A stretch of 64,000 bases of DNA from Chloroflexi bacterium HGW-Chloroflexi-2 (lineage in GTDB: Bacteria > Chloroflexota > Anaerolineae > Anaerolineales > Anaerolineaceae), in the NCBI GenBank assembly GCA_002840735.1, contig PHBY01000005.1, positions 62,001-126,000 of the forward strand. Reading direction: 5' to 3'. The stretch's first letter is position 1. Each line of letters opens with the position of its first letter. Below the pieces are notes generated by a model. That model worked only from the letters and a program-made list of their open reading frames with translations. It had not been told where the DNA came from and made no database searches. The translations under genes were made by a program, and so were the position numbers. This document shows, piece by piece, positions 1-51,876 of the stretch.

Positions 1-480
1 AAGGGCGTATCCGGGTGGAACATCATTATTGATGGCAATGCTTTCCGGACCATTCATTTGATCACCACTATCAAAGACGATGGCATAATCTTTCGTCCAG
101 GTGCAGGATCCATCATTTTGAATGAGCCAAATTTTCGTGAAAGCACCACCGGGGTCAATCTGTGTGTTATCCGGGATGGTGATATCTTCAACAAAAAGTG
201 CACGATCACAGGGCGCATCACTATCAACCGGAGCTGCGGTATATACTGGTTGTGGATTAGGCGCAGCAGTGCTTTGTTGTACAGGTTGTTCCTGCCCTTG
301 TATCGGCTGGGTTGGTTCTGGAGTATAACCATGAATCTTTGCCTGAACAGTTAGTGCCGCAGCAGTATAAGCCATATCACTCTCCGTGGTGGGTCCCGTT
401 TTGGTGGCGGGCATATTACAGGCGGATAAGAGAATGATCGAGATGATAAGAATGGATAAAACCAGGCTCGCTTTTTTCAT
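1..480 (-). CDS. Partial lipoprotein with NBR1-like Ig domain
   Basis: The gene starts at 480 (GGAG six bases upstream) and runs off the left edge, so only the first 160 codons are visible. Residues 1-21 form a lipoprotein signal: Lys-Lys, a hydrophobic stretch, then lipobox Leu-Ser-Ala-Cys with Cys21 as the lipidated residue. A Thr/Pro/Gln-rich linker (about 22-75) follows. From about residue 80 the sequence has the pattern of the NBR1 central Ig-like domain: PDNTQIDPGGAFTKIW, then a Cys-Thr-Trp-Thr segment, then a V-PG segment. In eukaryotes this fold binds partners in autophagy. In Anaerolineae it is common on surface lipoproteins of unknown function. It is likely an extracytoplasmic, membrane-anchored binding protein. 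Confidence 0.8.
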   Translation of the reverse strand, partial: MKKASLVLSILIISIILLSACNMPATKTGPTTESDMAYTAAALTVQAKIHGYTPEPTQPIQGQEQPVQQSTAAPNPQPVYTAAPVDSDAPCDRALFVEDITIPDNTQIDPGGAFTKIWLIQNDGSCTWTKDYAIVFDSGDQMNGPESIAINNDVPPGYAL

Positions 481-683
481 AATTAACTCCATTATCGAAT
501 AATAATGTTTGTGGTTTATCTTATTAATCCAGTGTCGCTGTGCTTAGTTGTTGGTATATATCCATCGTAAATACCAAGGTCAATAAGAAGAAATGAAAAT
601 AATTTATCGATATTATAAAATTATAGCAGCTATCAAATAAAAACACCTATGACAAGTAAAAAGAATGATCCTATGCATTTACC

Positions 684-796: not shown

Positions 797-1771
797 ATGG
801 CTTTTTTTGATATGCCTTTGGACCAATTGGAGAAATATAAACCTGTTTTGACAGCAATATCCGATTTTGACGAATTCTGGGAGCAATCCTATATGTTTGC
901 TCATAATTCGCCTATGCAGGCAGTTTTCAACCTTGTAAAAGAACCACTTGATCTTATTGACGTATATGATGTGTCTTTTCCCGGATATGCCGGTCAACCG
1001 ATAAAAGCCTGGTTATTGCTGCCAAAAGGGGTGAATGAACCACTGCCCTGTGTGGTCGAGTTTGTTGGTTATGGCGGCGGCCGTGGAAAACCGGTGGAAT
1101 GGCTTACCTGGGCGAATGCTGGCTTTGCTCATTTTGTGATGGATACGCGCGGACAGGGGAGCGTGTGGCGGGAGGGGGACACGCCGGATGTACTGGAGAG
1201 CGGATCCAGTGCGCAGGTGCCGGGTTTTATGACCCGTGGGATTCTCGCTCCAGAAACGTATTATTACCGGCGATTATTTATTGATGGAATGCGCGCAGTG
1301 GAGGCAGCCAGGGAACATCCACTGGTGGATATAGACCGGATCGCGGTCACCGGTTCCAGTCAGGGAGGTGGGGTTGCTTTGGCGGTGGCGGGGTTAATGC
1401 CGGATATTCCAGTCGTGATGCCAGATGTGCCTTTCCTGTGTGATTTTAAGCGTGCCACCCAACTGGTGGATAGTCATCCTTATCAGGAAATTGTGCAGTA
1501 TTGCCGGGTACATCGTGAAAAAGTGGAGCAGGTATTCAGGACGCTTTCCTATTTTGACGGGATGAATTTCGCAACCAGAGCCAAAGCAACTGCTTTGTTC
1601 TCGACTGCGTTGATGGATGATATCAGTCCTCCATCAACAGTTTTTGCAGCTTACAATCATTATGCCGGAGTTAAACAAATTCGTGTGTATCCCTTCAATC
1701 AGCATGATGGTGGTGGGGTACATCATTTTTATGAAAAGATCAACTTCCTGAGGTCCTTCTGGCATCATTAA
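797..1771 (+). CDS. CE7-family acetyl esterase (acetylxylan esterase / cephalosporin-C deacetylase type)
   Basis: A 324-residue alpha/beta hydrolase, the usual length for carbohydrate esterase family 7, whose members remove acetyl groups from small acetylated sugars and xylo-oligosaccharides. Visible family marks are RGQGS at 118-122 (oxyanion region), nucleophile Ser188 in GSSQG, catalytic Asp274 in the MDD-SPPST segment, and His303 in NQHDGGG. Many members have Glu after the catalytic His; here it is Asp. No signal peptide is seen, so the enzyme is cytoplasmic and probably acts on imported oligosaccharides. AGGAGG lies six bases before the ATG. The gene is monocistronic with its own promoter and a terminator shared with the convergent neighbour. 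Confidence 0.9.
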   Translation: MAFFDMPLDQLEKYKPVLTAISDFDEFWEQSYMFAHNSPMQAVFNLVKEPLDLIDVYDVSFPGYAGQPIKAWLLLPKGVNEPLPCVVEFVGYGGGRGKPVEWLTWANAGFAHFVMDTRGQGSVWREGDTPDVLESGSSAQVPGFMTRGILAPETYYYRRLFIDGMRAVEAAREHPLVDIDRIAVTGSSQGGGVALAVAGLMPDIPVVMPDVPFLCDFKRATQLVDSHPYQEIVQYCRVHREKVEQVFRTLSYFDGMNFATRAKATALFSTALMDDISPPSTVFAAYNHYAGVKQIRVYPFNQHDGGGVHHFYEKINFLRSFWHH

Positions 1772-1772
1772 T

Positions 1773-1804
1773 AAAATCAGCGTCTTTTATAAGACGCTGA
1801 TTTT
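1773..1804. terminator. Bidirectional terminator between convergent genes
   Basis: A 14-bp stem (1773-1786 with 1791-1804) with a TTAT loop, A-run on one side and T-run on the other. It can end both the esterase and the KamA-like transcripts. Confidence 0.85.
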
Positions 1805-1825
1805 TAAACAGTAAAAAAAAGGGAT

Positions 1826-3163
1826 TTACTCAAAAAAGAATTTTTCTTCCCCAAAAGCTGGTTTGAGTTGGTTGTACCAGATTGCATTGGGGTCATATTG
1901 GGCGTAGAAGGGTTTCATCACATGTTTTGGGTTGCGATGTTGTAAGGCACGCAAAACGTATACCTTTTCATTCATAATCTCAGAAACACCCAGCACCTGA
2001 ACTTTTCCGGGGTTACAGGACATCACTGGACCTCGAACCGTGCGGGCAAGCCCGGAAACTTGCTGGTAGGCTTTGCGGAAGACTTTCCAGGCTTCTTCCA
2101 ATGAGATGCTGAAATAGTGCTGTGCGCCAGTGTTACGGGCAACGAACATGTAATAAGGAACTACACCCATCTCAACCTGTCGCTGCCACATGCTAGCCCA
2201 AAGGTCCGGGTCATTGTTGATGTGATTGAGAACGGGAGATTGGGCCCTGATTTGCGCGCCAGTCTGGCGAATGCGACTGATGGCTAACTCAACTGCAGGT
2301 GTGGATAATTCACGTGGGTGGTTGAAATGTGCCATGATCGCCAGATGAATCCCATTCGAGACGATTTTCTCGAATAGAGTGAGCAATGCATCGGCATCAT
2401 TATCGGTTAAGAAGCGGTAAGGCCAATAAGACAGCGTTTTACTACCAATACGGATTGTTCGAAGGTTTGGCAAATCCGCCTGTAGGATTGCATTGATGTA
2501 GCCTTCGAGAATCTTCGTTTTCATAAATAACGGGTCACCACCGGTGAATAAAATATCGGTGACATCCGGATGTTTGCGCATGTATTTTATGACTGGTTCA
2601 ATCTCAGACATGGCAAATTTATAATCTGCAATCCCTGTAAATTGAGGCCAGCGGAAACAAAATGTACAATAGGCATGGCATGTTTGACCTTGGGTTGGGA
2701 AAAAGAGCAAGGTTTCACGGTATTTGTGTTGAACACCGGGCAGTACATTGCCATCGAGTGATGGCCGGTTTTTAGTCAGTTGTCCAGCGGGATGTGGGTC
2801 TAACTCTTCACGGATCTGGTTGGCAACCAGTGAGATCCGGTCTTCATCAGCGCCGCTTTTCAGCAGGGCTGCAATCCGATCATAATGATGCTTTTTTAGC
2901 ATATCTTTTTGGGGAAAATTTAAAATATAGAGAGGATCATTGGGAATGTTATTCCAGTCGATCAGTTCGTCAATAACGTAATTATTGGTGCGGAAGGGGA
3001 GAACGCGAGCTACTACCTCTATATCAAAAATTTGTTCATCGGTCAGGCTGTTGATTTGTGGAATTTGCCTGAAATTTTTCAATCCATAAGGTTGATATTT
3101 AGGATTTTGGAAGGCAACCTGCAAATCCTCATCAGGATGAATTATCCTACTCTGTAAAGTCAT
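1826..3163 (-). CDS. KamA-family radical SAM aminomutase-like protein
   Basis: A 445-residue radical SAM protein of the lysine 2,3-aminomutase family, which moves an amino group from C2 to C3 of an amino acid using a 4Fe-4S cluster, SAM and PLP. The cluster motif is Cys162-x3-Cys166-x2-Cys169, followed by the GGDP motif (FTGGDPLFM). In clostridial lysine aminomutase the PLP lysine sits in PGGGGK; here the equivalent region reads MSCNPGKVQVLG, so PLP may be held by the Lys of PGK. The substrate cannot be read from sequence. AAAGGAGG precedes the ATG. It is not next to lysine-fermentation genes, which argues against a simple lysine-degradation role. Confidence 0.8.
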   Translation of the reverse strand: MTLQSRIIHPDEDLQVAFQNPKYQPYGLKNFRQIPQINSLTDEQIFDIEVVARVLPFRTNNYVIDELIDWNNIPNDPLYILNFPQKDMLKKHHYDRIAALLKSGADEDRISLVANQIREELDPHPAGQLTKNRPSLDGNVLPGVQHKYRETLLFFPTQGQTCHAYCTFCFRWPQFTGIADYKFAMSEIEPVIKYMRKHPDVTDILFTGGDPLFMKTKILEGYINAILQADLPNLRTIRIGSKTLSYWPYRFLTDNDADALLTLFEKIVSNGIHLAIMAHFNHPRELSTPAVELAISRIRQTGAQIRAQSPVLNHINNDPDLWASMWQRQVEMGVVPYYMFVARNTGAQHYFSISLEEAWKVFRKAYQQVSGLARTVRGPVMSCNPGKVQVLGVSEIMNEKVYVLRALQHRNPKHVMKPFYAQYDPNAIWYNQLKPAFGEEKFFFE

Positions 3164-3265
3164 TGGTTCCTCCTTTCAATTTGTAAAGTGCGTTGAATTA
3201 ATAATGTTGACTGAGATCAGTCGCTTAATAACCTCCTTATTACAAAGATTTGTGTTGAATATGTG

Positions 3266-3286
3266 ATGACCAAATTTTTTGGTCAT
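3266..3286. promoter_or_regulatory. Operator-like dyad upstream of the KamA-like gene
   Basis: ATGACCAAA and TTTGGTCAT form a perfect 9-bp inverted repeat with a 3-base spacer, about 105 bases upstream of the KamA-like start. A second hairpin, GCGTTC-GAAT-GAACGC, lies at 3327-3342. The first could be a repressor site or a weak terminator reading rightward (six Ts follow). The rest of the gap 3164-3455 is A/T-rich with nothing else recognised. Confidence 0.35.
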
Positions 3287-3455
3287 TTTTTGGGGTGTTG
3301 GTCTATTGTTTTTTTACGTAGTAAGAGCGTTCGAATGAACGCAAAATCTAAAAAACAGATCCTGAAGTCCAACTTATTCATTATACATTAAATTATTTAA
3401 ATTTTATTAAAAGTTTATAAATTGATCAAAATTGTATTCAATTGATTGATGATTG

Positions 3456-4853
3456 CTATTTTTCCTGCTCCAACAATTGATTGTGTTTTGAGGTGTGCAT
3501 TTCCAATACTTTGGTTTGAATATTTTTAAGAGTTTCTCCACGCAATGGATACCAGATCAGAATGATCGCTCCCAATAACATTGCGATCCCGGGAATCAAT
3601 CCTGTGATCATTTTTATTCCAAAAAGCGCACTATCAGGTTGGTTTGAGAAAATTTGTCCTTTATTTTGTTCTCTGGTGACAAAATTGGTCGCTTCGAGGA
3701 TAAATGGGCTGAGGGCAATAGCCACTGATTGAGCAGGTTTGGTCAGCAGCGCATTAATTCCAAAGAAAGATCCTTCTCTACGTACACCCGAACGCGTTTC
3801 ATCTTCGTCAGCTACCTGCGCGAATAGCACATTCGTCAAAGTCTGTGGACCGGCCAGACCAAATCCAGCCAATGCCAGGCAAACGGGTATAAAGGAGTTT
3901 GGCAGGACCATCATCGATAATAAGCCTGTTGCTGCAATTAATAACATAACTTGATGCCCACCCACGACGCCAAAGCGTTTGGTAAATAATTTTGTGAATG
4001 GAACGCCAATGATGAGTGGAATAAAAATACAGGCGAGCAGAATCATGGTATTCATCTTAAGGACATAATCAGCCAGGTAAAACACCGAGCCTGTGACCAG
4101 GGATGACATGAGAATGGACATAAAATTGGCTGCCACCAGGACGAGAAAAGATTTGCTGGAGAAAGTGAAGTGTAAAGATTCTTTAATCCCAATGGGTTTA
4201 TCGACCTGAGTGAACTCCGGGCGTTCTTTTACTTTCAGTGTGGTGGCAACGATTAATAAAGCACCCACAATACCCACCACAATCATCGCTGTTTGTAATG
4301 GCAGAAAACTGGGATCTCCACCGGCTTTAGGGCGGAAGAGATCCGGGATGATAAAACCCATCAACATACCGACTAAACCAAACAAGGAGGAGGAAATTTG
4401 CAAGTCATTTCGTTCTGAATCGGATTCGGTGATTTCTGGTAGGAGGGATGAATATACAAGACCGATAATGGTGTAACAAGTATCATACAGCAGCATACTG
4501 ATCAGCATCCACCAGAATATGGCTGTTTGACCCGCCTGGGCTGGAGCAAACCAGACCAGGATGAAGGTTAAAGCCAGAAAAGGAGCCGTAAAACGCATAT
4601 ACGGGATGCGTCTGCCCATTTTGGAACGGGTATTATCCGTGACATACCCAAAAAGAGGGTCATTGAAAGCATTCCAGATAGCGTACACGATGGATGCTAC
4701 TGCAATCCAACGCGCTGAAAGACCTAAATAATCCTGATAAAAAATAGGTAGGAGTGCTCCAAAGACCCCGGAAATGAGAGAAGTGCCTAGAGAGGCAATT
4801 CCCCAAACAAGTTTGTAGCTGCGACCATGTGTAATGGGTTTATTGATCATCAT
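3456..4853 (-). CDS. GPH-type sugar:cation symporter (MFS)
   Basis: A 465-residue polytopic membrane protein with about 12 hydrophobic segments. The loop NDPLFGYVTDNTRSKMGRR near residue 65 is the hallmark of the glycoside-pentoside-hexuronide symporter group (MelB, XynP relatives), which imports oligosaccharides or glycosides with Na+ or H+. A GGAGA sequence lies upstream of two adjacent ATG codons (4853 and 4850), so the exact start is uncertain by one residue. It lies close to the CE7 esterase, which fits uptake and deacetylation of plant-type oligosaccharides, but the two are on opposite strands. Substrate unknown. Confidence 0.82.
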   Translation of the reverse strand: MMINKPITHGRSYKLVWGIASLGTSLISGVFGALLPIFYQDYLGLSARWIAVASIVYAIWNAFNDPLFGYVTDNTRSKMGRRIPYMRFTAPFLALTFILVWFAPAQAGQTAIFWWMLISMLLYDTCYTIIGLVYSSLLPEITESDSERNDLQISSSLFGLVGMLMGFIIPDLFRPKAGGDPSFLPLQTAMIVVGIVGALLIVATTLKVKERPEFTQVDKPIGIKESLHFTFSSKSFLVLVAANFMSILMSSLVTGSVFYLADYVLKMNTMILLACIFIPLIIGVPFTKLFTKRFGVVGGHQVMLLIAATGLLSMMVLPNSFIPVCLALAGFGLAGPQTLTNVLFAQVADEDETRSGVRREGSFFGINALLTKPAQSVAIALSPFILEATNFVTREQNKGQIFSNQPDSALFGIKMITGLIPGIAMLLGAIILIWYPLRGETLKNIQTKVLEMHTSKHNQLLEQEK

Positions 4854-4977
4854 ATCTATTTGGTCTCCTGTCGGGTGGATTGGAAATTAAAGAGAAAAAA
4901 ATAATTATTGAGAATTAAATAATTATAAATTGTTTTCAATAGGGTAACCTATTTTGTAGATTTCAATTTAATATATT

Positions 4978-5014
4978 TTTTTGACGGATTTGTGACGTTT
5001 GTTTGCTACCATCA
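4978..5014 (+). promoter_or_regulatory. Probable promoter of the propeller lipoprotein
   Basis: TTGACG is followed after 19 bases by TACCAT preceded by TGC, an extended -10 pattern. This lies about 80 bases upstream of the lipoprotein start. An AATAGG/CCTATT dyad at about 4938-4953 is nearby. Confidence 0.35.
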
Positions 5015-5091
5015 TCTAGAAGTAAACAAATTCAAGACCATCATGTCTTTTCGATGGCATTAAGCAAAGATTATCTTTTGGAGGATGGAAC

Positions 5092-6248
5092 TTGAAAAAC
5101 AGAATAAATAAAATTGTACTTTCGATGATCCTTCCTGTCATTATCATTCTGATAACCAATTGTACATACCAGGAGCAAAAAAAGAGACGACCTTGGAAAA
5201 TTCAGAAAAAAATCTCCCCAATGAGTTTATGTTACCAGCAGGATTATTTTTTCTTAAAGATGGACAAATCTGGCTACTAGACAAGGAAGATATGAATTCA
5301 GTTCAGATCACGAATGAAGAAGATCCGATTACAGAATTTGACTTTTCAGCCAGCAGTGATTACCTGGTGTATGTCAGTGGAAATCAGTTAATTCTTGCTC
5401 AAAAGGATGGCAGTAACAGAAACAGCGTTCGGCGAGGACAGGTGCTGGTGAGCCTAAAGGATCAACTGGAAATGATGAATGATGAACTACAGATAAAATA
5501 TGGCATTCGTAGTCCCAGATTTTCAGTGGATGGTTCAAAAATTTCTTTTGTTGAAAATGGATTATGGTTGATGGACGTGGAAACTGAAAAATTAGATTTG
5601 ATTTGGGTAAACTCATCCGATTATCAAAATATAATTTATCGACTATTGAACTGGTCACCGGATGAAGAAAATTTCCTGGTATCAGGATATGCTTTTCCAG
5701 TTAAGAGCCTTTATGATCTAACAATTGGATTGGTAAGCAAAGATAGACTGGTGACATTACCCAATACATCAGTAGATGGATATGCCTGGTTTGCTGGAGG
5801 AAAAGGTCTGATCCTCTCGCAATCAAACGCCGGGCATCCAGGTTCGCTCATGCGTTGTGAGGTCGATGAATTTCGTTGTGTGGGCATTGCAGAATTCGAA
5901 CCAGCCCGTTGGTACTATTATTACGCATTCCCGAGAGTGGTAGACGATGTCAATATTCAGGTTTTCATGGCAGCTCTTGCTGATCCATCACAAATACCCG
6001 ATCGATTTAAATTGATTCGGGTTAACCTGCAAGGAAACAATCGGCAGGAATTGATGCCAGAAGAGTTTCCAGTAGAGCTTGGATTGTGGTCACCGGATGG
6101 AAATGGTGTGGTTGTTCAACTTTCAAAAACGATGCAAGACCATTCTACCGGGGCGGTTCTGTGGGTTGATCTAGTTCAAAAAAAGATTTATGAGTTGTCT
6201 GTATCCGGCGTTTCACAAATGAAGTGGGATGGGAACAGGCAAAATTAA
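5092..6248 (+). CDS. Propeller-type lipoprotein, split by a -1 frameshift
   Basis: A TTG start at 5092 (GGAGG upstream) opens a typical lipoprotein signal: KNR-N-K, a hydrophobic run and Cys after ITN. This frame stops at 5280. The rest of the protein, about 355 residues to 6248, is in the -1 frame. The join is at a run of seven A at 5177-5183. After a one-base backward slip the product reads QEQKKETTLENSEKNL and continues smoothly. The body has repeated sequences of the WD40-like/TolB propeller type (FSASSDYLVYVSG, FSVDGSKISFVENG, WSPDEENFLVSG, WSPDGNGVVVQ). It is probably a surface-anchored beta-propeller of unknown ligand. The shift may be programmed, a real mutation, or a homopolymer sequencing error. 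Confidence 0.7.
5178..5184 (+). other. In-frame A AAA AAG slippery heptamer
   Basis: Read in the signal-peptide frame the codons are CAA AAA AAG, giving X-XXY-YYZ phasing identical to the E. coli dnaX slippery site. A -1 slip enters exactly the frame of the lipoprotein body. AGGAG at 5171-5175 is a Shine-Dalgarno-like sequence, but it lies closer than the stimulatory element of dnaX. Confidence 0.5.
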
Positions 6249-6418
6249 TATGATGCGAATTTAAAGGAAAGGAGAACAACAATATTAATTGAGGTACGAA
6301 TAGGGCAATAAGGGAGAAGAAATTTTATCTTCATCAGCCAGATATTGGCTAGCGATATTCAAACGCTTCTTATTTAGCGATTGATATGGAAAAAGGGATA
6401 GTTATTATTGGAGGAATG

Positions 6419-8110
6419 ATGAAAAAAAGAAATCTGATGTTCATGGGGATAATGATCATTGTTTTGTTGGTGTCAATGGCCTGCAATTTAGGAAAATCGA
6501 CAGGCAATAAAGCTGTCACTGATGTTTACACCAGTGAAGAAGGGGGATTTTCCTTCAAAATCTTGAAAGATTATTCACTCAATGAAGTGCTGGGTGGGGT
6601 TGAGATGACAGCACCAGATGCAATACCTGAAGTTGGACCTGGTATACAGTTATTTGGAACCATAACCGATCAGGAACAAACTACAGAAGGTATGTGGGAT
6701 TTGGTGACCGATCCAGAAATTGGCCAGTTTACTTTCGATAAACCGAAAAAATATACTGTAGACGGACAAAAAGGCTTAATAGCTGGTTTTGAAGGTGAAC
6801 AAGTCGGGGAATCTGTAAAAGGAAAAATTTTCCTGGTCATGGTAAAACCGGATCAGCAATTTATGATGTTTGGAATTGCACCGGAAAAAGAATGGAAGAA
6901 ATTTGAATCCCTTTATGACGATGTCTTGAAAAGCGTCAAATTCCAGGATGCAAAGCCGATCGAGTTTTCCTTTGAGGATGAAGAAGAATGGGTGTTTGAT
7001 GAAGAACCGAGTCAAACGGATCCTGTTCAGATTGATCCTGTTTTTGTAGATGAACCACAAATTATTCGGCAATGGGCATCCAGTGCAATCGCCAGTTCGG
7101 AGTACAGCGCAAAGGATTGGTCTGCGATGCAAGCGACTGGTGCGCCGGATGTGAATTCCTGCGGTTCGGACCCAAAAGCATGGTCACCGGCTTATATCGA
7201 TACTGAAGAATACATCGAGTTATTTTTCGATATTCCAGTGATTCCAACGGAACTGGCTATTTATCAATCCTATAATCCTTCTCAGGTAGTTGAGATTCAA
7301 TTAATTGATACTGATGATGAAGCCTGGTTATTATGGTATGGTGACCCTGAAACAGTGTCCGATTGTCCTGATAAGTGGACACATACGATTGAATTAGAAG
7401 AAACCTTTTTTGTTCAATCGGTTGTCATTTTTGTTGATCAGGGAATTATGAGTTGGGGCGGTGTGGAGATAGACGCGGTGGAATTGGTCGGCTACCAGGA
7501 GGGTGCTGAGGTCGGCTCAACTGCAACCGTCCAGGAGCTTTCAGGAAATACCGACCAGGCATCCACTGGAACTTCTGGTGGAGAAATTCCAACCAATTAT
7601 GAAGGATTAATGGCAGGTCCGGTCTATCAAGGCTGGATTAATATTATTGTCAATAAAACCCTGGAAGCAGATCTGGATAAAATTATGACTATTCCAGGAA
7701 AAAAGAGTACGGATTCGTGGAAGCCACGTGAAAGTCACAAGCAAACCTACCTGTATGAAATGCCCTGGAAAGGAATGACAGGCTATATCAGTGTGACCAA
7801 TGATGGGGTTGTGTATAAAAAGAATGTTACCAGCAACACACATCCAACTGATTACGCTTTGGACACCGTTAATCGAGCAATGTATGAACAATTGAAAGCC
7901 ATTTATGATCGTGATAAAGTAATTCCCTACCTTGTTATGTCAAATATACTTGAATCACCAGGATTCTTATTAGATCAATATTACCGTGAAGATGATGGGA
8001 AAATCGTAAGCACATTTAGCTGGTATAACGCGAAAGGTGATCGTATTACAGGAATTTTCTTTGATGGATTATTAACCGGGATGATGGGATTGAACTTCAT
8101 TGAAAAATAG
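6419..8110 (+). CDS. Large multidomain lipoprotein
   Basis: A 563-residue lipoprotein. The chosen start is the second of two adjacent ATGs (6416, 6419) just after GGAGG. An in-frame ATG at 6386 has no ribosome binding site and would spoil the signal. Lipobox is VSMAC. About residues 25-165 are a PsbP/DcrB-like alpha-beta region (GGFSFKILKDYSL onward). An acidic linker follows. About 200-350 resemble a discoidin-type galactose-binding fold (ASSEYSAKDWSAMQATGAPDV, WSP-YIDTEEYIEL, WGGVEIDAVELVG). The C-terminal 120 residues are unassigned. It is probably a surface carbohydrate- or ligand-binding protein. It follows the propeller lipoprotein and is followed by a decayed copy of its own N-terminal domain. 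Confidence 0.75.
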   Translation: MKKRNLMFMGIMIIVLLVSMACNLGKSTGNKAVTDVYTSEEGGFSFKILKDYSLNEVLGGVEMTAPDAIPEVGPGIQLFGTITDQEQTTEGMWDLVTDPEIGQFTFDKPKKYTVDGQKGLIAGFEGEQVGESVKGKIFLVMVKPDQQFMMFGIAPEKEWKKFESLYDDVLKSVKFQDAKPIEFSFEDEEEWVFDEEPSQTDPVQIDPVFVDEPQIIRQWASSAIASSEYSAKDWSAMQATGAPDVNSCGSDPKAWSPAYIDTEEYIELFFDIPVIPTELAIYQSYNPSQVVEIQLIDTDDEAWLLWYGDPETVSDCPDKWTHTIELEETFFVQSVVIFVDQGIMSWGGVEIDAVELVGYQEGAEVGSTATVQELSGNTDQASTGTSGGEIPTNYEGLMAGPVYQGWINIIVNKTLEADLDKIMTIPGKKSTDSWKPRESHKQTYLYEMPWKGMTGYISVTNDGVVYKKNVTSNTHPTDYALDTVNRAMYEQLKAIYDRDKVIPYLVMSNILESPGFLLDQYYREDDGKIVSTFSWYNAKGDRITGIFFDGLLTGMMGLNFIEK

Positions 8111-8216
8111 AGAAGATCCTCTTACTTTGAGGTAAGTGTTTCATTTGATATTAACTTTGCGTTTACCATTCTTTCAATCATTGAGAGCATTCAGGAAAAA
8201 AATCAATAATGTAAAT

Positions 8217-8252
8217 ACAGATTTCGGATTTATATTCGAAATCTGTTTTTTT
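8217..8252 (+). terminator. Intrinsic terminator of the large lipoprotein
   Basis: Ten-bp stem ACAGATTTCG/CGAAATCTGT with a 10-base loop followed by a run of Ts. Confidence 0.85.
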
Positions 8253-8314
8253 CATCCTGGATGCTTTTAGTGATTTATCCAATATTGCTATTAGATGAAA
8301 CTTGATATTAATAA

Positions 8315-8794
8315 GAGAATTCTATTTTTTCTAATGGATTCGAAATGATCACATCTGGTTCTCTTCCATTCGTCGGACCTGGATTCTATGTATATGGTGG
8401 TTTAGTGGATGAAAAACTAACCACAGAAGAATTATGGAATTTTCTTACCTAGGAAGAATTTAAATTCTATCAATTTGATAAACCAAAAGACCGGAAAATA
8501 GATGGATACACTGGTCTGATCGCTGAATTTCACGGTATTCAGGTAAACACAAATATCATGGGAAAACTTTACACTGTCATGATGGATCAGAAATAACAAT
8601 TTATCATGATTGATTTTGCACCAGAAGATGAATAGAGAAAATTTGAATCATTGTTTGATATGGTACTTAAGACTGTAAAATTTTATATTCCGAATCGTGT
8701 GCTTAAATTAGATAATCCCTATAAGCGACATATTGACGAGAATGTATATCAAAAATCACCAATTCCCGAATCTTCATCAGATTCTGAGAATTGA
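8315..8794 (+). pseudogene. Decayed tandem copy of the upstream lipoprotein N-domain
   Basis: One reading frame across this stretch aligns with the PsbP-like domain of the preceding lipoprotein: GFEMITSGSLPFVGPGFYVYG against GVEMTAPDAIPEVGPGIQLFG, then TTEELWNFLT, QFDKPKDRKIDGYTGLIAEF, and RKFESLFDMVLKTVKF against KKFESLYDDVLKSVKF. It holds three in-frame stops: TAG 8450, TAA 8594 and TAG 8633. The last two align with Gln and Trp codons of the intact copy and are explained by single base changes. There are no frameshifts over about 480 bases. It ends at TGA 8792-8794. No signal peptide is detectable upstream. This is a duplicated gene that died by nonsense mutation. Confidence 0.88.
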
Positions 8795-46316: not shown

Positions 46317-46949
46317 TTAGCCTACCGGTTCTTTCATGATAACAAATTCACAAACATTGTTGCCAGCAGCGATACATTTTGTTTCAACCACGCGGAATTC
46401 GTATCCGCCTGATACCCATTTTAATCCTTCTTGAATTAATCCGGTAGCCACATGGCAGCCAGGTTTCTCAATGTGCCTGCCATAACAGACTGGACATTTG
46501 TGGATGGTATAAATGAAGTGATCCTCTTTTTCTTCCACAGTGGAATGTTGATCGCTGGTTTGGGTAAAAATTCTTGCCATCGCAGGCAAACCAATTTTTA
46601 TTTTGGTATGCAGGGGCAGCACCTTAAATGCAAGATCACCGGCGCCGGCCAGTGCTCCAAAATTTCTTAATCCCTCAGCAAATGTTGCCCGTCCTGCTCT
46701 GAGCGCTAATCCGCGTCCACCACGGGGACCGTACATTTCTTCCAGAGCGCCCCAAATGGCAGAAAAATAGGCAAAATCATATTCCCTGTTGAGGTTCGGG
46801 GGTGGGTAGTTATCGATCAGATGTTGAAGATTAGCCAGGTTGAGAATGGCATTGACACCATTCTTACCCATCACATCTTCCAGTGCTTTGAGAGCAATAT
46901 TGGCAATTTTGTTTGGATAATAAAGACCGCTGACTGGAATAGGTTCCAT
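46317..46949 (-). CDS. V4R domain protein
   Basis: A 210-residue protein with a C-terminal V4R (4-vinyl reductase-type) ligand-binding domain: CPVCYGRHIEKPGCHVATGL and CIAAGNNVCEFVI, with Cys that may bind a metal. V4R domains are found in signalling regulators and in an unrelated chlorophyll-biosynthesis reductase. No catalytic partner is seen. It lies between a roadblock protein and a response regulator, so a sensory role is favoured. Weak ribosome binding site. Confidence 0.75.
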   Translation of the reverse strand: MEPIPVSGLYYPNKIANIALKALEDVMGKNGVNAILNLANLQHLIDNYPPPNLNREYDFAYFSAIWGALEEMYGPRGGRGLALRAGRATFAEGLRNFGALAGAGDLAFKVLPLHTKIKIGLPAMARIFTQTSDQHSTVEEKEDHFIYTIHKCPVCYGRHIEKPGCHVATGLIQEGLKWVSGGYEFRVVETKCIAAGNNVCEFVIMKEPVG

Positions 46950-46961
46950 TTCAAACCAGAG

Positions 46962-47333
46962 CTAAATTAGCTTGGTCAGGTCTTCTGCAGCACGACGCAT
47001 ATCCAGGAAAATAAGGCCAAGTTTTGCCTGTTCACGTGACAGTGCGGTCAGAACTGCTTCTTCGCCGACTGACATCAGGACAACATAACCCTGTTTACCT
47101 TTGATATAAACCTGCTCGAGATTACCACGTCCTAATTCTGTCGCAATTCTTTCACCCAGTGAAAGCATGGCGGCTGACATAGCCGAAACCCGGTCTTCCT
47201 CCACCCCTTGTGGTAATGCAGACGCAATGGTTAAACCATCTACACTGACGATTGCCGATGCTTCGATATCCGGTGAGGACGCCTGAAGCTCTCTCAGCCT
47301 TTCTACCATGAGTTGAGTTCTTGATTTTGTCAA
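46962..47333 (-). CDS. Roadblock/LC7 domain protein
   Basis: A 123-residue single-domain protein (IEASAIVSVDGLTIASALP, ERIATELGRGNLEQVYIKG, GYVVLMSVGEEAVLTALS) of the roadblock/LC7 family; MglB of Myxococcus is a GTPase-activating member. TTG start at 47333 is placed with AAGGAG seven bases upstream; the frame extends further but lacks a good start. First gene of the operon with V4R and the response regulator. No small GTPase gene lies in the window. Confidence 0.85.
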   Translation of the reverse strand: MTKSRTQLMVERLRELQASSPDIEASAIVSVDGLTIASALPQGVEEDRVSAMSAAMLSLGERIATELGRGNLEQVYIKGKQGYVVLMSVGEEAVLTALSREQAKLGLIFLDMRRAAEDLTKLI

Positions 47334-47496
47334 AATGACGCTCCTTGAGGGAATTCTATTCGAAAAAATTTGATTGTTAATTAATGTAGCATAGTCAAAA
47401 AACACTGTCAAGCAAACTTTCAGAACTTGAAAGGTGCGGGTTGGTTGACCTTACAGCTGACCGAAATGAATTGTGAGTTTGAATATCAAAATCAGG

Positions 47497-47509
47497 TACA
47501 ATGTTGTTA
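47497..47509 (+). promoter_or_regulatory. Leaderless-type -10 box of the magnesium chelatase I gene
   Basis: TACAAT (47497-47502), seven bases (GTTGTTA), then ATG at 47510. An earlier in-frame ATG at 47501 overlaps the hexamer itself. No ribosome binding site. Confidence 0.55.
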
Positions 47510-48655
47510 ATGACAAATAATCTTAACACGGAACGGTTAATATATCCATTTACTGCCATTGTTGGGCAGGAAGAAATGGTTCTGGCGTTGATTTTGAATG
47601 CGATCAACCCCAGAATTGGCGGTGTTTTGATTCAAGGAGAAAGAGGGACCGCCAAATCCACAGCTGTACGGGCTTTAGCGGCTTTGCTTCCAAAGATTCA
47701 AGTAATTCAAGGGTGCCGTTTTGGATGCCAACCGTCTAAACCAAGCACATGGTGCAGTGAATGTCATCAGCGTTTTATTGCCGGAGAAAAGCCAGAGACA
47801 ATCGAGAAAGCTACCCCCTTTGTCAATTTACCCGTCTCAGCCACAGAAGACCGGGTGGTGGGAACCCTCGACATTGAAAAAGCCATTCGCTATGGCATGA
47901 GAGCTTTCGAAGCCGGGGTACTGGCGGAAGCCAACCGTGGGCTGTTATATATTGACGAAGTCAATCTATTGGATGATCACGTGGTGGATGTGCTTCTTGA
48001 TACAGCTGCCATGGGGGTTAATATCATTGAACGTGAAGGCATCTCCTTTTCTCATCCAGCCCGGTTCATGCTGGTTGGGACGATGAATCCGGAGGAAGGG
48101 ACGCTGCGGCCACAATTGATTGACCGCTTTGGATTATCCGTCACAGTAAAGAGCATCACGGATATAAGAAGAAGAGTCGTAATTTTGCAACGGGTGCTCG
48201 ATTTTGAAAATGATCCGTATCGTTTTCTCAAAACCTGGGAAAATTGTGAAAAGACACTTTCCAATCGCCTCATCCAGGCACAGCATCTGTTACCACGCAT
48301 AAAAATTACGCATGAAAATCTTGAAATGATCGCCGATGTCACCAGCCAATTCAAGATAGAAGGTCACAGAGCGGATTTGGTTATTCAGAAAACGGCGATT
48401 GCGCATGCTGTCTATAACAACCGCACGCACCTGGAGCCCAGTGATATTCATGTTGCGGCACAATTAGCCTTACCGCATCGCTTGAAACGCAAACCATTCG
48501 ATCAGCCATTTGAGTTACCAGTCTTGGAAGATACAGTAAAAACAATTATTTATCCGGAACGAGCGGCGAAGTTACAGGAAATCCTGAATGATAAACGGGA
48601 CCCATTAACCATCCAGGATCCACACAACGAATGCGGTTTTTATATCGTTGGATAA
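47510..48655 (+). CDS. Magnesium chelatase subunit I (BchI/ChlI) homologue, orphan
   Basis: A 381-residue AAA+ ATPase. Walker A is GERGTAKST; a family-specific Cys segment (CRFGCQPSKPSTWCSECHQ) follows; Walker B is LLYIDEVNLLDDH; the sensor segment is MLVGTMNPEEGTLRPQLIDRFGL. BchI normally works with BchD and BchH to put Mg2+ into protoporphyrin, but neither partner is in the window. It may be a MoxR-like chaperone or support cobalamin-type chelation. It is divergent from the roadblock operon. A NUDIX fragment follows its stop. Confidence 0.85.
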   Translation: MTNNLNTERLIYPFTAIVGQEEMVLALILNAINPRIGGVLIQGERGTAKSTAVRALAALLPKIQVIQGCRFGCQPSKPSTWCSECHQRFIAGEKPETIEKATPFVNLPVSATEDRVVGTLDIEKAIRYGMRAFEAGVLAEANRGLLYIDEVNLLDDHVVDVLLDTAAMGVNIIEREGISFSHPARFMLVGTMNPEEGTLRPQLIDRFGLSVTVKSITDIRRRVVILQRVLDFENDPYRFLKTWENCEKTLSNRLIQAQHLLPRIKITHENLEMIADVTSQFKIEGHRADLVIQKTAIAHAVYNNRTHLEPSDIHVAAQLALPHRLKRKPFDQPFELPVLEDTVKTIIYPERAAKLQEILNDKRDPLTIQDPHNECGFYIVG

Positions 48656-49144: not shown

Positions 49145-50779
49145 TTGAAAACGGTCATCGCTGGTGCACTTGGAGAATGTGTACATGTAGCTGGTATCAA
49201 TAATTTTTTACATCTGGCGGAAGAAGCCGGTTGGAAAACAGTGTTTTTAGGCCCGGCTGTTTCGATAGACCAGTTCCTTTCCATGGCAAAGTCCGAACAG
49301 GCGGATATGGTTGGTGTCTCCTACCGGTTGACCCCTGAAACAGGCGAACGATTGTTGGCAGAATTCGCTGAAGCCGCGGATGAGTTACGGGAAAGTGGTG
49401 TTCGATTTGTTTTTGGGGGAACACCACCGGTGGCAGAAAAAGCAAAAGCAAGTGGTTTTTTTGAGCGTGTCTTCGATGGAAATGAGGGAGATGTCGAAGT
49501 TTTGCGGTTTTTACGTTCACAGGAAACCGGCACCTCAACTCCGGTGAAGTGTCCAGAGAAAACTATTGAACGAATTCATTGGAAACAACCCTTCCCGCTT
49601 TTACGGCATCATTTTGGGTTACCTACCCTTGCGGAAAGCGTGGATGGCATCAGGAAAATTGCTGAAAGTCAGGTATTGGATGTCATTTCTTTAGGGATTG
49701 ATCAGGATGCTCAGGAAAACTTCTTTCATCCGGAGAGACAGGATCCACGCCGGAAAGGTGCTGGTGGTGTGCCAGTGCGCTCTGCACAGGATTATTCCCT
49801 GCTTTTTCAAGCCAGCCGATGTGGAAATTTCCCTTTAATGCGCACGTATTCCGGGACGGATGATTTTATTCTATTGGCTGAACTGGTAACAGAAACCATC
49901 CAGAATGCCTGGTGTGCGATTCCATTATTCTGGTTCAATCAAATGGATGGTAGAGGTCCCTGGGATTTGGAAGGATCGATTAGAGAACACCAACAAGTGA
50001 TGAAATGGTATGGAGAGCGTGGCATCCCGGTTGAGTTGAATGAACCGCACCATTGGGGCATGCGCGATGCACCGGATGTGATCTATGTGGTGGCAGCATA
50101 TTTGTCGGCTATCAATGCCAAAGCTTTTGGCGTACGCGATTATATTGCTCAGTTCATGTTTAACAGCCCTCCAGGATTATCCGATCGAATGGATCTGGCG
50201 AAAATGCTGGCAATCTTAGAATTGATCGAACCACTTGCAGATGAAAACTTTCAGATTTGGCGTCAAACCAGAACCGGGTTATTGAGTTATCCGCTTGATC
50301 CAATCGCTGCCAGGGCACATCTGGTTGCCAGTATTTATCTCCAGATGGCTTTAAAGCCACATATTGTGCACGTGGTCGGGTTCAGTGAAGCCGATCATGC
50401 AGCTAGAGCAGATGATGTGATTGAATCCTGCCAGTTGGCACAACGAGCTATCGAGAATGCTATCAAAGGTGCCCCGGATATGACTGCTGATGCGATTGTG
50501 CAATCACGGATCAAACATTTAGTATCAGAAGCAACAATTACACTGGACACCATTCGTTCAATGGGTGATGGCTATAATGCTCTTTTAGATCCCAAGGTAT
50601 TGACTGAAGCAGTTCAGCGCGGCATTCTGGATGCTCCTCAATTAAAAAACAATCGATTTGGTCTTGGAAAGATTAGAACCCGTATCCTCAATGGTGGTTG
50701 TGAGGCCATAGATGGAAACGGAAATTTTCTTTCCGAGACAGATCGGATATTACAAATCAGACAAGGAAAAATAACATGA
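49145..50779 (+). CDS. Cobalamin-dependent mutase-like protein (B12 domain fused to glutamate-mutase-like barrel)
   Basis: A 544-residue protein with TTG start (AAGGTGG upstream). Residues 1-135 look like a B12-binding Rossmann domain: GECVHVAGINNFLHLAEEAGW holds His14 and Gly17 of the DxHxxG loop (Asp is replaced by Cys12), with VGVSYRL and VFGGTPP later. Residues 150-544 resemble the catalytic barrel of glutamate mutase E in layout: RTYSGTDDFILLAELV, then LEGSIREHQQVMKWYGERGIPVELNEPHHW, then AYLSAINAKAFGVRDYI. It likely does a carbon-skeleton or amino-group rearrangement of an amino acid. It is coupled (4-base overlap) to an opine-dehydrogenase-family gene. Confidence 0.7.
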   Translation: MKTVIAGALGECVHVAGINNFLHLAEEAGWKTVFLGPAVSIDQFLSMAKSEQADMVGVSYRLTPETGERLLAEFAEAADELRESGVRFVFGGTPPVAEKAKASGFFERVFDGNEGDVEVLRFLRSQETGTSTPVKCPEKTIERIHWKQPFPLLRHHFGLPTLAESVDGIRKIAESQVLDVISLGIDQDAQENFFHPERQDPRRKGAGGVPVRSAQDYSLLFQASRCGNFPLMRTYSGTDDFILLAELVTETIQNAWCAIPLFWFNQMDGRGPWDLEGSIREHQQVMKWYGERGIPVELNEPHHWGMRDAPDVIYVVAAYLSAINAKAFGVRDYIAQFMFNSPPGLSDRMDLAKMLAILELIEPLADENFQIWRQTRTGLLSYPLDPIAARAHLVASIYLQMALKPHIVHVVGFSEADHAARADDVIESCQLAQRAIENAIKGAPDMTADAIVQSRIKHLVSEATITLDTIRSMGDGYNALLDPKVLTEAVQRGILDAPQLKNNRFGLGKIRTRILNGGCEAIDGNGNFLSETDRILQIRQGKIT

Positions 50780-51876
50780 CAACAAAAACCAGATACACCG
50801 TGATTGGCGCTGGACATGGAGGACGGGCAATGGCTGCACATTTGGGGCTGATGGGATTTCCAACCATACTCTATAACCGCACAGAGGAGCATATAGCTGC
50901 CATTAAAGAGTTGGGCGGAATAGACCTTGATAGTGTAAGCAATGAATTGCGTGGCTTTGGCAAATTGACAAAAGTGACAACCAATATCGCTGAAGCTATT
51001 CAGGATTCTGAAATGATCATGGTGGTGATTCCATCCTCAGCACATGCAGAAATTGCAGCAGCTTGTGCACCGTTCTTGAAGGATGGTCAATTTGTGATCC
51101 TGCATCCTGGTCGTACCTGTGGAGCCATTGAATTTGCCAAAGTGATTCGCGATTTTGGTTGCACTGCAGATGTGACCATAGCTGAAGCTGAGACATTCAT
51201 TTATGCATCTCGGGCTGATGGCCCAGCGCAAGCCAGAATTTTTCGGATCAAAGAAGCAGTCCCGTTAGCAGCGTTACCAGCAACCAGGACAGCAAGGGTT
51301 TTGGAGAAAATCCATGAAGCTTTTCCACAGTTCATCGATGGGGGTAATGTTCTTCAAACCGGATTGAATAATATGGGAGCCATTTTTCATCCAGCCATCA
51401 GTCTGCTAAATGCCGGTTGGATTGAATCAACGCATGGTGATTTTCAGTTCTACATCAACGGCGTGACTCCTTCAGTTTCCCGGGTTTTAGAGGCTTTGGA
51501 TCGGGAACGAGTGACAGTGGCTTCATCTCTGGGAATACGAGCCCGAACTGCAATGGAATGGTTAACATTGGCTTACAATGCAACCGGAGATACACTCGAA
51601 GAAGCAATCCATAATCAACCCGGGTATTATGGTATCAAAGCGCCACCGATGCTCAATCACCGTTACTTATTTGAAGATGTGCCCATGAGCCTGGTACCGA
51701 TTGCCTCCCTCGGACAAAGATTTGGTGTCTCAGTCCGTGGCATTGATGCGATCATACGATTGGCTTGTATCGTACATCGCACGGATTATTGGCGCAGAGG
51801 GCGAACCATCGAGAAATTAGGTTTGGATGTGTTGGATGTGGATGAGTTGACTCAGTATGTGATGGAAGGGTTATAA
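50776..51876 (+). CDS. Octopine/nopaline dehydrogenase-family protein
   Basis: A 366-residue NAD(P)-dependent dehydrogenase. Rossmann motif VIGAGHGGRAMAAHL (GxGxxG at 11-16). The helical C-terminal domain carries the family HP motif in NNMGAIFHPAISLLNAG, where the His is catalytic in opine dehydrogenases. Such enzymes join an amino acid and an alpha-keto acid reductively, or do the reverse. It overlaps the mutase-like gene by 4 bases (ATGA), which implies joint function. Confidence 0.8.
   Translation: MTTKTRYTVIGAGHGGRAMAAHLGLMGFPTILYNRTEEHIAAIKELGGIDLDSVSNELRGFGKLTKVTTNIAEAIQDSEMIMVVIPSSAHAEIAAACAPFLKDGQFVILHPGRTCGAIEFAKVIRDFGCTADVTIAEAETFIYASRADGPAQARIFRIKEAVPLAALPATRTARVLEKIHEAFPQFIDGGNVLQTGLNNMGAIFHPAISLLNAGWIESTHGDFQFYINGVTPSVSRVLEALDRERVTVASSLGIRARTAMEWLTLAYNATGDTLEEAIHNQPGYYGIKAPPMLNHRYLFEDVPMSLVPIASLGQRFGVSVRGIDAIIRLACIVHRTDYWRRGRTIEKLGLDVLDVDELTQYVMEGL

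Follow-up and report, generated by a model that had tools for sequence, protein, structure and literature searches.

The DNA examined here (the window, a stretch of 64,000 nucleotides) carries two adjacent genes on its forward strand, encoding a candidate AdoCbl mutase and an opine dehydrogenase. The features of the locus are as follows, in positions of the window.

49145..50779, forward strand: candidate single-chain AdoCbl mutase of 544 aa (open reading frame starting with TTG; B12-binding domain at the N-terminal end, GlmE-like barrel at the C-terminal end)
49151..49474, forward strand: predicted B12-binding domain, mutase residues 3-110 (PF02310; altered motif C12-x-H14-x-x-G17, S59-Y-R61, G92)
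49550..50743, forward strand: GlmE-like barrel, mutase residues ~136-533 (range of the structural alignment, 136..533)
50776..50779, forward strand: ATGA, 4-base overlap of the mutase stop and the dehydrogenase start, read from the sequence
50776..51876, forward strand: opine dehydrogenase of the CENDH/mODH type, 366 aa (ATG start; PF02317 and 1bg6 matches; R35, R113, G201, H205, E300-D301)

Both open reading frames and their 4-base overlap are thus present as an earlier note on this DNA had described them, and the overlap makes translational coupling of the mutase and the dehydrogenase likely. The TTG start of the mutase is backed by the sequence AAGGTGG just 5' of it and by homologues (L109, L046 and L078) that start with MKTV. 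A genome search located a single copy of each gene in the source genome.

Domains, fold and conserved residues of the mutase

Mutases resembling that of the window are referred to here as type 1 and those fused to a GlmL/MutL ATPase domain as type 2. Profile searches of both proteins, which the earlier note had suggested, identified PF02310 in the mutase (residues 3-110, E 2.2e-11) and PF02317 in the dehydrogenase. No significant Pfam family was found by profile search in the mutase beyond its B12 domain, PF06368 (GlmE) was not matched at E<=1, and the score against TIGR01501 (23.6 bits) lies below the cut-off of 135.8. The cobalamin motif reads CxHxxG and not DxHxxG, His and Gly being kept while Asp is replaced by Cys. 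C12 is present in 47/47 type-1 and in 10/11 type-2 aligned mutases, the eleventh having a gap at this position, and Arg61, which we take to stand at the Leu of the SxL motif, is found in 58/58. Because of the Cys in place of Asp and of Arg61 at this presumed Leu position, cobalamin binding by the mutase is regarded only as predicted.

The AlphaFold model of the mutase (pLDDT 87.5, pTM 0.86) contains a B12-type Rossmann domain and a TIM-type barrel, so that neither of the two folds whose absence would have spoken against the earlier note is missing, and its description of a cobalamin-type Rossmann domain with a Cys-x-His-x2-Gly motif agrees with both the PF02310 match and the model. The B12 domain of the model (residues 1-128) aligns with 4jgi_B at Z 16.6; taken in isolation, it also resembles corrinoid methyl carriers. 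The top PDB match of the complete model is glutamate mutase E, 1cb7_B (Z 32.1, rmsd 2.9 over 369 residues, 16% identity), followed by lysine 5,6-aminomutase (Z 29.4), ornithine 4,5-aminomutase (26.6) and methylmalonyl-CoA mutase (21.0). The likeness of the barrel to glutamate mutase E, proposed earlier from the letters of the window, was also recovered by hhalign, with a probability of 93.2 (E 2.9e-7) when 48 members of the mutase family (47 type-1 and one type-2, with L076, L079, L091 and L073, whose range contains a stop, left out) were compared with four Chloroflexota GlmE proteins, and of 97.4 (E 4.9e-11) in a global alignment of 47 type-1 and 11 type-2 mutases with GlmE. Among these 58 aligned mutases, outside which stand the C-terminal fragment L158 and the partial L157, the residues R154, H156, Q187, Q190, R212, R233, N265, D268, R270, E297, N299, H302, R307, R376, E415 and H418 of the barrel are invariant.

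Some of these residues bear on the substrate. Two glutamate-binding arginines of GlmE, R66 and R100, align with H156 and Q190 of the window mutase by hhalign; since both are replaced, plain glutamate is doubtful as the substrate. Six other arginines of the barrel (R154, R212, R233, R270, R307 and R376) are invariant. Judged from the alignments, the barrel keeps much conserved positive charge but not the pocket of glutamate mutase, and we therefore infer that the substrate is acidic, either free or N-substituted. The equivalent of GlmE Arg149 is ambiguous (Y235 by hhalign, R233 by eye) and was left unused. E415, invariant in 58/58 mutases, aligns with an invariant Glu of GlmE that we take to be Glu330. 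Glu330 of GlmE is reported to interact with the ribose of Ado (PMC4413051 and PMC3958899).

In comparison to glutamate mutase GlmES, the window mutase has in common the B12 Rossmann domain, the GlmE-type barrel and the Glu330-like Glu, and the counterpart of the GlmL/MutL protein that accompanies GlmES is fused to the mutase in type 2. It differs in having both domains on one chain, the B12 domain being N-terminal, in the Cys that stands for Asp, in lacking a PF06368 match and in the two substrate-arginine positions.

The source genome encodes a cobalamin adenosyltransferase and methylmalonyl-CoA mutase, which makes the use of AdoCbl plausible. Canonical GlmE is absent from this genome in a PF06368 search. 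The only MutL found there was rejected as a dedicated partner of the mutase, being unlinked, in an unrelated neighbourhood and a weaker match (110 bits, as compared to 270 for the type-2 domain). Nine window ORFs neighbouring the pair were scanned and include no methylaspartate ammonia-lyase. Genome-wide, a single partial hit of 27.3 bits (cut-off 27) was not counted; the profile also matches 11/14 controls, over the cut-off in 2, and the hit is taken for another member of the enolase superfamily.

Linkage of the two genes and the type-2 lineage

Of 400 Chloroflexota genomes searched, 55 contained a match: 27 had a strong type-1 hit, one (G184) had a distant type-2 hit, and the matches of the other 27 were weak and confined to the B12 domain. 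The dehydrogenase adjoins the mutase in 26 of the strong loci, and the contig of the 27th ends 2 bases past the mutase match. A separate scan of genome contigs, from which the best 80 of 164 relatives were kept (all with titles of Chloroflexota groups), served as the neighbourhood survey that had been proposed for recurrence of the pair. Among these best 80 of 164 relatives, a dehydrogenase lies next to the mutase on the same strand in 79 loci, downstream in 77 (with gaps of 0-251 bases) and upstream in 2, while in the remaining locus (L102) no dehydrogenase is present within its 12.5 kb of sequence. The 27-locus and 80-locus sets share organisms. The gene spacing of the window recurs in L031, L032, L073 and L076.

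Clustering of the 912 ORFs (the pair included) of these best 80 of 164 relatives revealed no constant third operon gene; the largest other cluster occurs in 19 loci at varying positions, and the flanking genes vary. The clustering recovered 72 of the 79 dehydrogenases, and all 79 are used in the residue counts given below. Neither mutase type had a match in a plasmid collection. A search for cobalamin riboswitches in the window, 8 of the 80 type-1 loci and 7 type-2 loci found none, and a promoter and terminator scan gave no more hits than shuffled sequences.

The type-2 mutase of G184 is 35% identical to the window mutase, and its fused domain matches PF13941 (E 4.8e-80) and scores 258.6 bits against NF040745, below the cut-off of 475. 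Here the opine dehydrogenase lies upstream and overlaps the mutase by 4 bases. A class-level search detected type-2 mutases in 12/150 genomes, in one case divided between two contigs, in addition to a short fragment in G467. Twelve loci include the N-terminal part of a type-2 mutase, and in 10 of them an opine dehydrogenase is adjacent; of the two exceptions, L148 stops at a contig edge and L155 is without a dehydrogenase on a short contig. Five of these dehydrogenases belong to an octopine-DH-like group and are all located upstream of the mutase, and the other five are related to the window gene, four being downstream and one upstream. The two groups are only distantly related and are interleaved on the mutase tree (FastTree, support of 0.90-1.0 at the nodes concerned), which implies at least two exchanges of the partner.

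The pair is therefore real and recurrent in Chloroflexota. The adjacency in 79/80 loci, together with the presence of type-2 mutases again beside opine dehydrogenases of two exchanged groups, means that the linkage is very probably functional.

Genes for an RpiR regulator, an Opp-type ABC importer and a C45 hydrolase are found repeatedly at type-2 loci, as identified by similarity to the G184 genes, of which those for RpiR and C45 were named directly. Two more genes occur in the L156 cluster, one for an ornithine-racemase-like protein (340.9 bits, against a cut-off of 480) and one for a gamma-glutamyltransferase. This gene content suggests that type-2 clusters may import and degrade a compound resembling an opine or a peptide. 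Genes like these two of L156 are also seen, as judged by eye, in the L157 cluster.

Substrate and cofactor residues of the dehydrogenase

The placement of the second gene in the octopine/nopaline dehydrogenase group stands, since the protein matches PF02317 (Octopine_DH) with E 6.1e-48 and its nearest solved structure is that of N-(1-D-carboxyethyl)-L-norvaline dehydrogenase from Arthrobacter (ArODH, 1bg6; phmmer E 1.7e-74). The two proteins align over nearly their full length, 132 of 349 aligned columns (38%) being identical, and have the family, the His and the Glu-Asp residues in common. The glycines G11, G13 and G16 of the GxGxxG motif and H205 are present in 69/69 dehydrogenases, and D301 in 62/69, with Glu in the other 7. 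From our own reading of the ArODH alignment, H205 and D301 probably form the His-Asp dyad.

Opine dehydrogenases from hot-spring metagenomes (mODHs) are described, in a 2024 study (PMC10787698), as preferring Asp, Glu and cysteate with pyruvate; according to the same study, mutagenesis showed that Arg111 and Gly198 (ArODH numbering) set the preference for Asp over Phe, and Arg35 is a sign of NADPH acceptance. Mapped through the 1bg6 alignment, R113, G201 and R35 of the window dehydrogenase are the equivalents of Arg111, Gly198 and Arg35, whereas ArODH itself has Ala111 and Asn198. Of 12 further substitutions that PMC10787698 lists for some of the mODHs, the window protein also has 10, differing at 157 and 287. 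Its identity to ArODH of 38% compares with near 40% for the mODHs, and its likeness to them is one of the listed positions. The branched and ornithine-type substrates put forward in the earlier note do not fit these residues, which, going by the same study, favour acidic amino acids instead.

The same residues recur wherever the dehydrogenase is linked to a mutase. At the 79 type-1 loci, found among the best 80 of 164 relatives, R35 is present in 79/79, R113 in 78/78 and G201 in 77/77 sequences that contain the position, 1 and 2 of the 79 being truncated at R113 and G201, respectively. In the second set of type-1 loci, from the 400-genome search, all three occur in 26/26. R113 and G201 are likewise found in all 10 dehydrogenases adjacent to type-2 mutases, five of which come from the distant group. 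Position 35 is Lys or another non-Arg residue in the type-2 dehydrogenases, none of which has Arg35, and because of this their cofactor may differ from that of type 1.

As controls, 20 genes were drawn from the 32 of 45 Chloroflexota PF02317 matches that are not linked to a mutase; 19 of them come from genomes in which the mutase search gave no strong hit, and one (in G192) is on a different contig from the mutase. The Arg and Gly pair is present in 1 of these 20, the gene G192:C155, which adjoins an Opp importer and has no mutase within the 16 kb examined. In another control (L187), position 113 is ambiguous between alignments (Arg or a gap) and Ala is present at 201. The finding that the Arg and Gly pair is present in all mutase-linked dehydrogenases with both positions readable is new; owing to shared ancestry within the dehydrogenase lineages, it amounts to only about two independent observations.

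Proposed reaction and its alternatives

We propose, with a probability of about 0.6, that an AdoCbl-dependent carbon-skeleton mutase acting on a free acidic amino acid is coupled to the NAD(P)H-dependent formation or cleavage of an opine with pyruvate, the two genes forming a short metabolic unit. The mutase would be of the glutamate-mutase class, AdoCbl-dependent and with its cobalamin domain fused N-terminally. Cobalamin would be bound His14-on and base-off, and Co-C homolysis and hydrogen abstraction would then allow fragmentation-recombination of an acidic amino acid (of the glutamate/3-methylaspartate type) or of a close derivative. The dehydrogenase, for which NADPH is the probable cofactor, would link this amino acid to pyruvate by reduction, giving an N-(1-carboxyethyl) secondary amine, or would split such an amine oxidatively. 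In the type-2 clusters, which also encode an importer of the Opp type, an RpiR regulator and a C45 hydrolase, catabolism is the probable direction, an opine being taken in, its amino acid freed and then rearranged. The stand-alone pair of the window could work in either direction, towards opine formation or cleavage. The scheme suggested earlier, in which rearrangement of an amino acid is joined to formation or oxidation of a secondary amine, thus holds as a prediction from the domains, the fold and the linkage, with the catalytic step itself being postulated. Free glutamate or 3-methylaspartate is a rather doubtful choice for the mutase substrate, and another free acidic amino acid is somewhat more probable in this place.

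It seems unlikely that the substrate rearranged by the mutase is the opine, an N-(1-carboxyethyl) amino acid made or used by the dehydrogenase, and not a free amino acid. The replacement of the residues that grip glutamate in GlmE (R66 by H156, R100 by Q190), the six other invariant barrel arginines, as a tri-carboxylate substrate might need, and the swapping of dehydrogenase lineages while the mutase stays would all suit such a substrate, but this argument is drawn from aligned residues, and no member of the glutamate-mutase class is known to us to take a secondary amine as its substrate, which we count against it. A PLP-assisted aminomutase of the lysine 5,6- or ornithine 4,5- type, with the dehydrogenase acting on the shifted diamine, is very improbable. 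In the structural comparison such enzymes rank next (Z 29.4 to 26.4), they belong to the same barrel family, and an ornithine-racemase-like (Orr-like) gene is present in the type-2 cluster of L156 and, by eye, of L157. However, their PLP lysine lies 11 residues past the cobalt His (His133/Lys144 and His618/Lys629, PMC3958899), where type-1 mutases have Ala25 (47/47) and type-2 mutases Met or Leu (11/11), and with the expected lysine missing this identity was rejected. Their B12 domain is on a separate subunit or on the C-terminal side (His133 of beta, His618) and not N-terminal as in the window mutase, and the residues of the dehydrogenase favour acidic and not basic side chains.

That the first protein is a corrinoid carrier, a sensor or another barrel enzyme instead of a mutase is improbable as well; the altered B12 motif and the similarity of the B12 domain alone to corrinoid methyl carriers are in line with such a function, but the match to glutamate mutase extends along the barrel in both profile and fold, the Glu assigned to ribose contact is retained, and the type-2 proteins are fused to a GlmL-type domain. 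Each gene has been found on a stretch without the other (L102 for the mutase, the G192 gene for the dehydrogenase), as would be expected of mere neighbours without a shared pathway. This hardly appears credible in view of the adjacency in 79 loci among the best 80 of 164 relatives, where no further gene comes near such constancy, and of a partner exchange that preserves the kind of enzyme.

Returning to the coupled mutase and dehydrogenase that we prefer, both enzymes are variants of kinds already known, and it is their pairing that is apparently undescribed. In agreement with the statement of the earlier note that no pathway with this pair is described, the open-access literature searched yielded no function for the pair and no paper linking an opine dehydrogenase to a B12 mutase. 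We consider the chances about even that the pair represents an undescribed pathway, in which a new AdoCbl mutase with a non-glutamate substrate (a branched acidic amino acid or an N-carboxyethyl derivative) would act before or after an opine dehydrogenase for acidic amino acids.

To our knowledge, few classes of B12 carbon-skeleton mutases exist, and each new class means a new radical rearrangement. The dehydrogenase partner narrows the likely substrate of the mutase to acidic amino acids, with pyruvate as the co-substrate of the pair, which makes the reaction directly testable. If the proposed reading is true, B12 radical chemistry would be coupled to opine metabolism, and the pair, which suggests a cellular role for the acid-preferring metagenomic opine dehydrogenases described in PMC10787698, would give these enzymes a physiological role.

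Genes upstream of the pair

In the window, two features lie upstream of the mutase and opine dehydrogenase genes:
46317-47411, - strand, V4R-domain protein adjoining a Roadblock/LC7 protein
47501-48655, + strand (that of the pair), ChlI/Mg-chelatase-like AAA+ ATPase

The ATPase, which is separated from the pair by a gap of 489 bases, could be a component of a cobalt or magnesium chelatase.

GlmL-like genes in the window's genome and in a relative

A divergent, free-standing MutL/GlmL-like protein is encoded elsewhere in the window's genome (L113, 8764-10500; G000:C7), surrounded by genes for membrane-like and large proteins, and no mutase was seen in its neighbourhood. A same-family genome that is devoid of the fused pair (G176) carries a canonical GlmL-GlmE cluster (L114), and the gene following it was judged by eye to be methylaspartate ammonia-lyase-like.

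Opine dehydrogenase and mutase neighbourhoods in relatives

In the control stretch L189 (G192:C155), a complete Opp-type importer consisting of a substrate-binding protein, two permeases and two ATPases is located immediately 5' of an opine dehydrogenase with the Arg+Gly pair (about 1600-8390). No mutase gene is present within the 16 kb stretch examined, and the cluster looks like one for opine uptake and catabolism without a mutase.

Genes close to or adjoining type-2 mutases, which are fused to the GlmL/MutL ATPase domain, are as follows:
L153, 16569-19998, MmgE/PrpD, saccharopine-dehydrogenase-like gene and second opine dehydrogenase, the last without the Arg+Gly pair
L156, 3923-6907, ornithine-racemase-like and gamma-glutamyltransferase genes (from the scan)
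L157, 4925-7840, the same two kinds of gene (by eye)

The neighbours in L156 and L157 hint at a D-amino-acid or gamma-glutamyl substrate.
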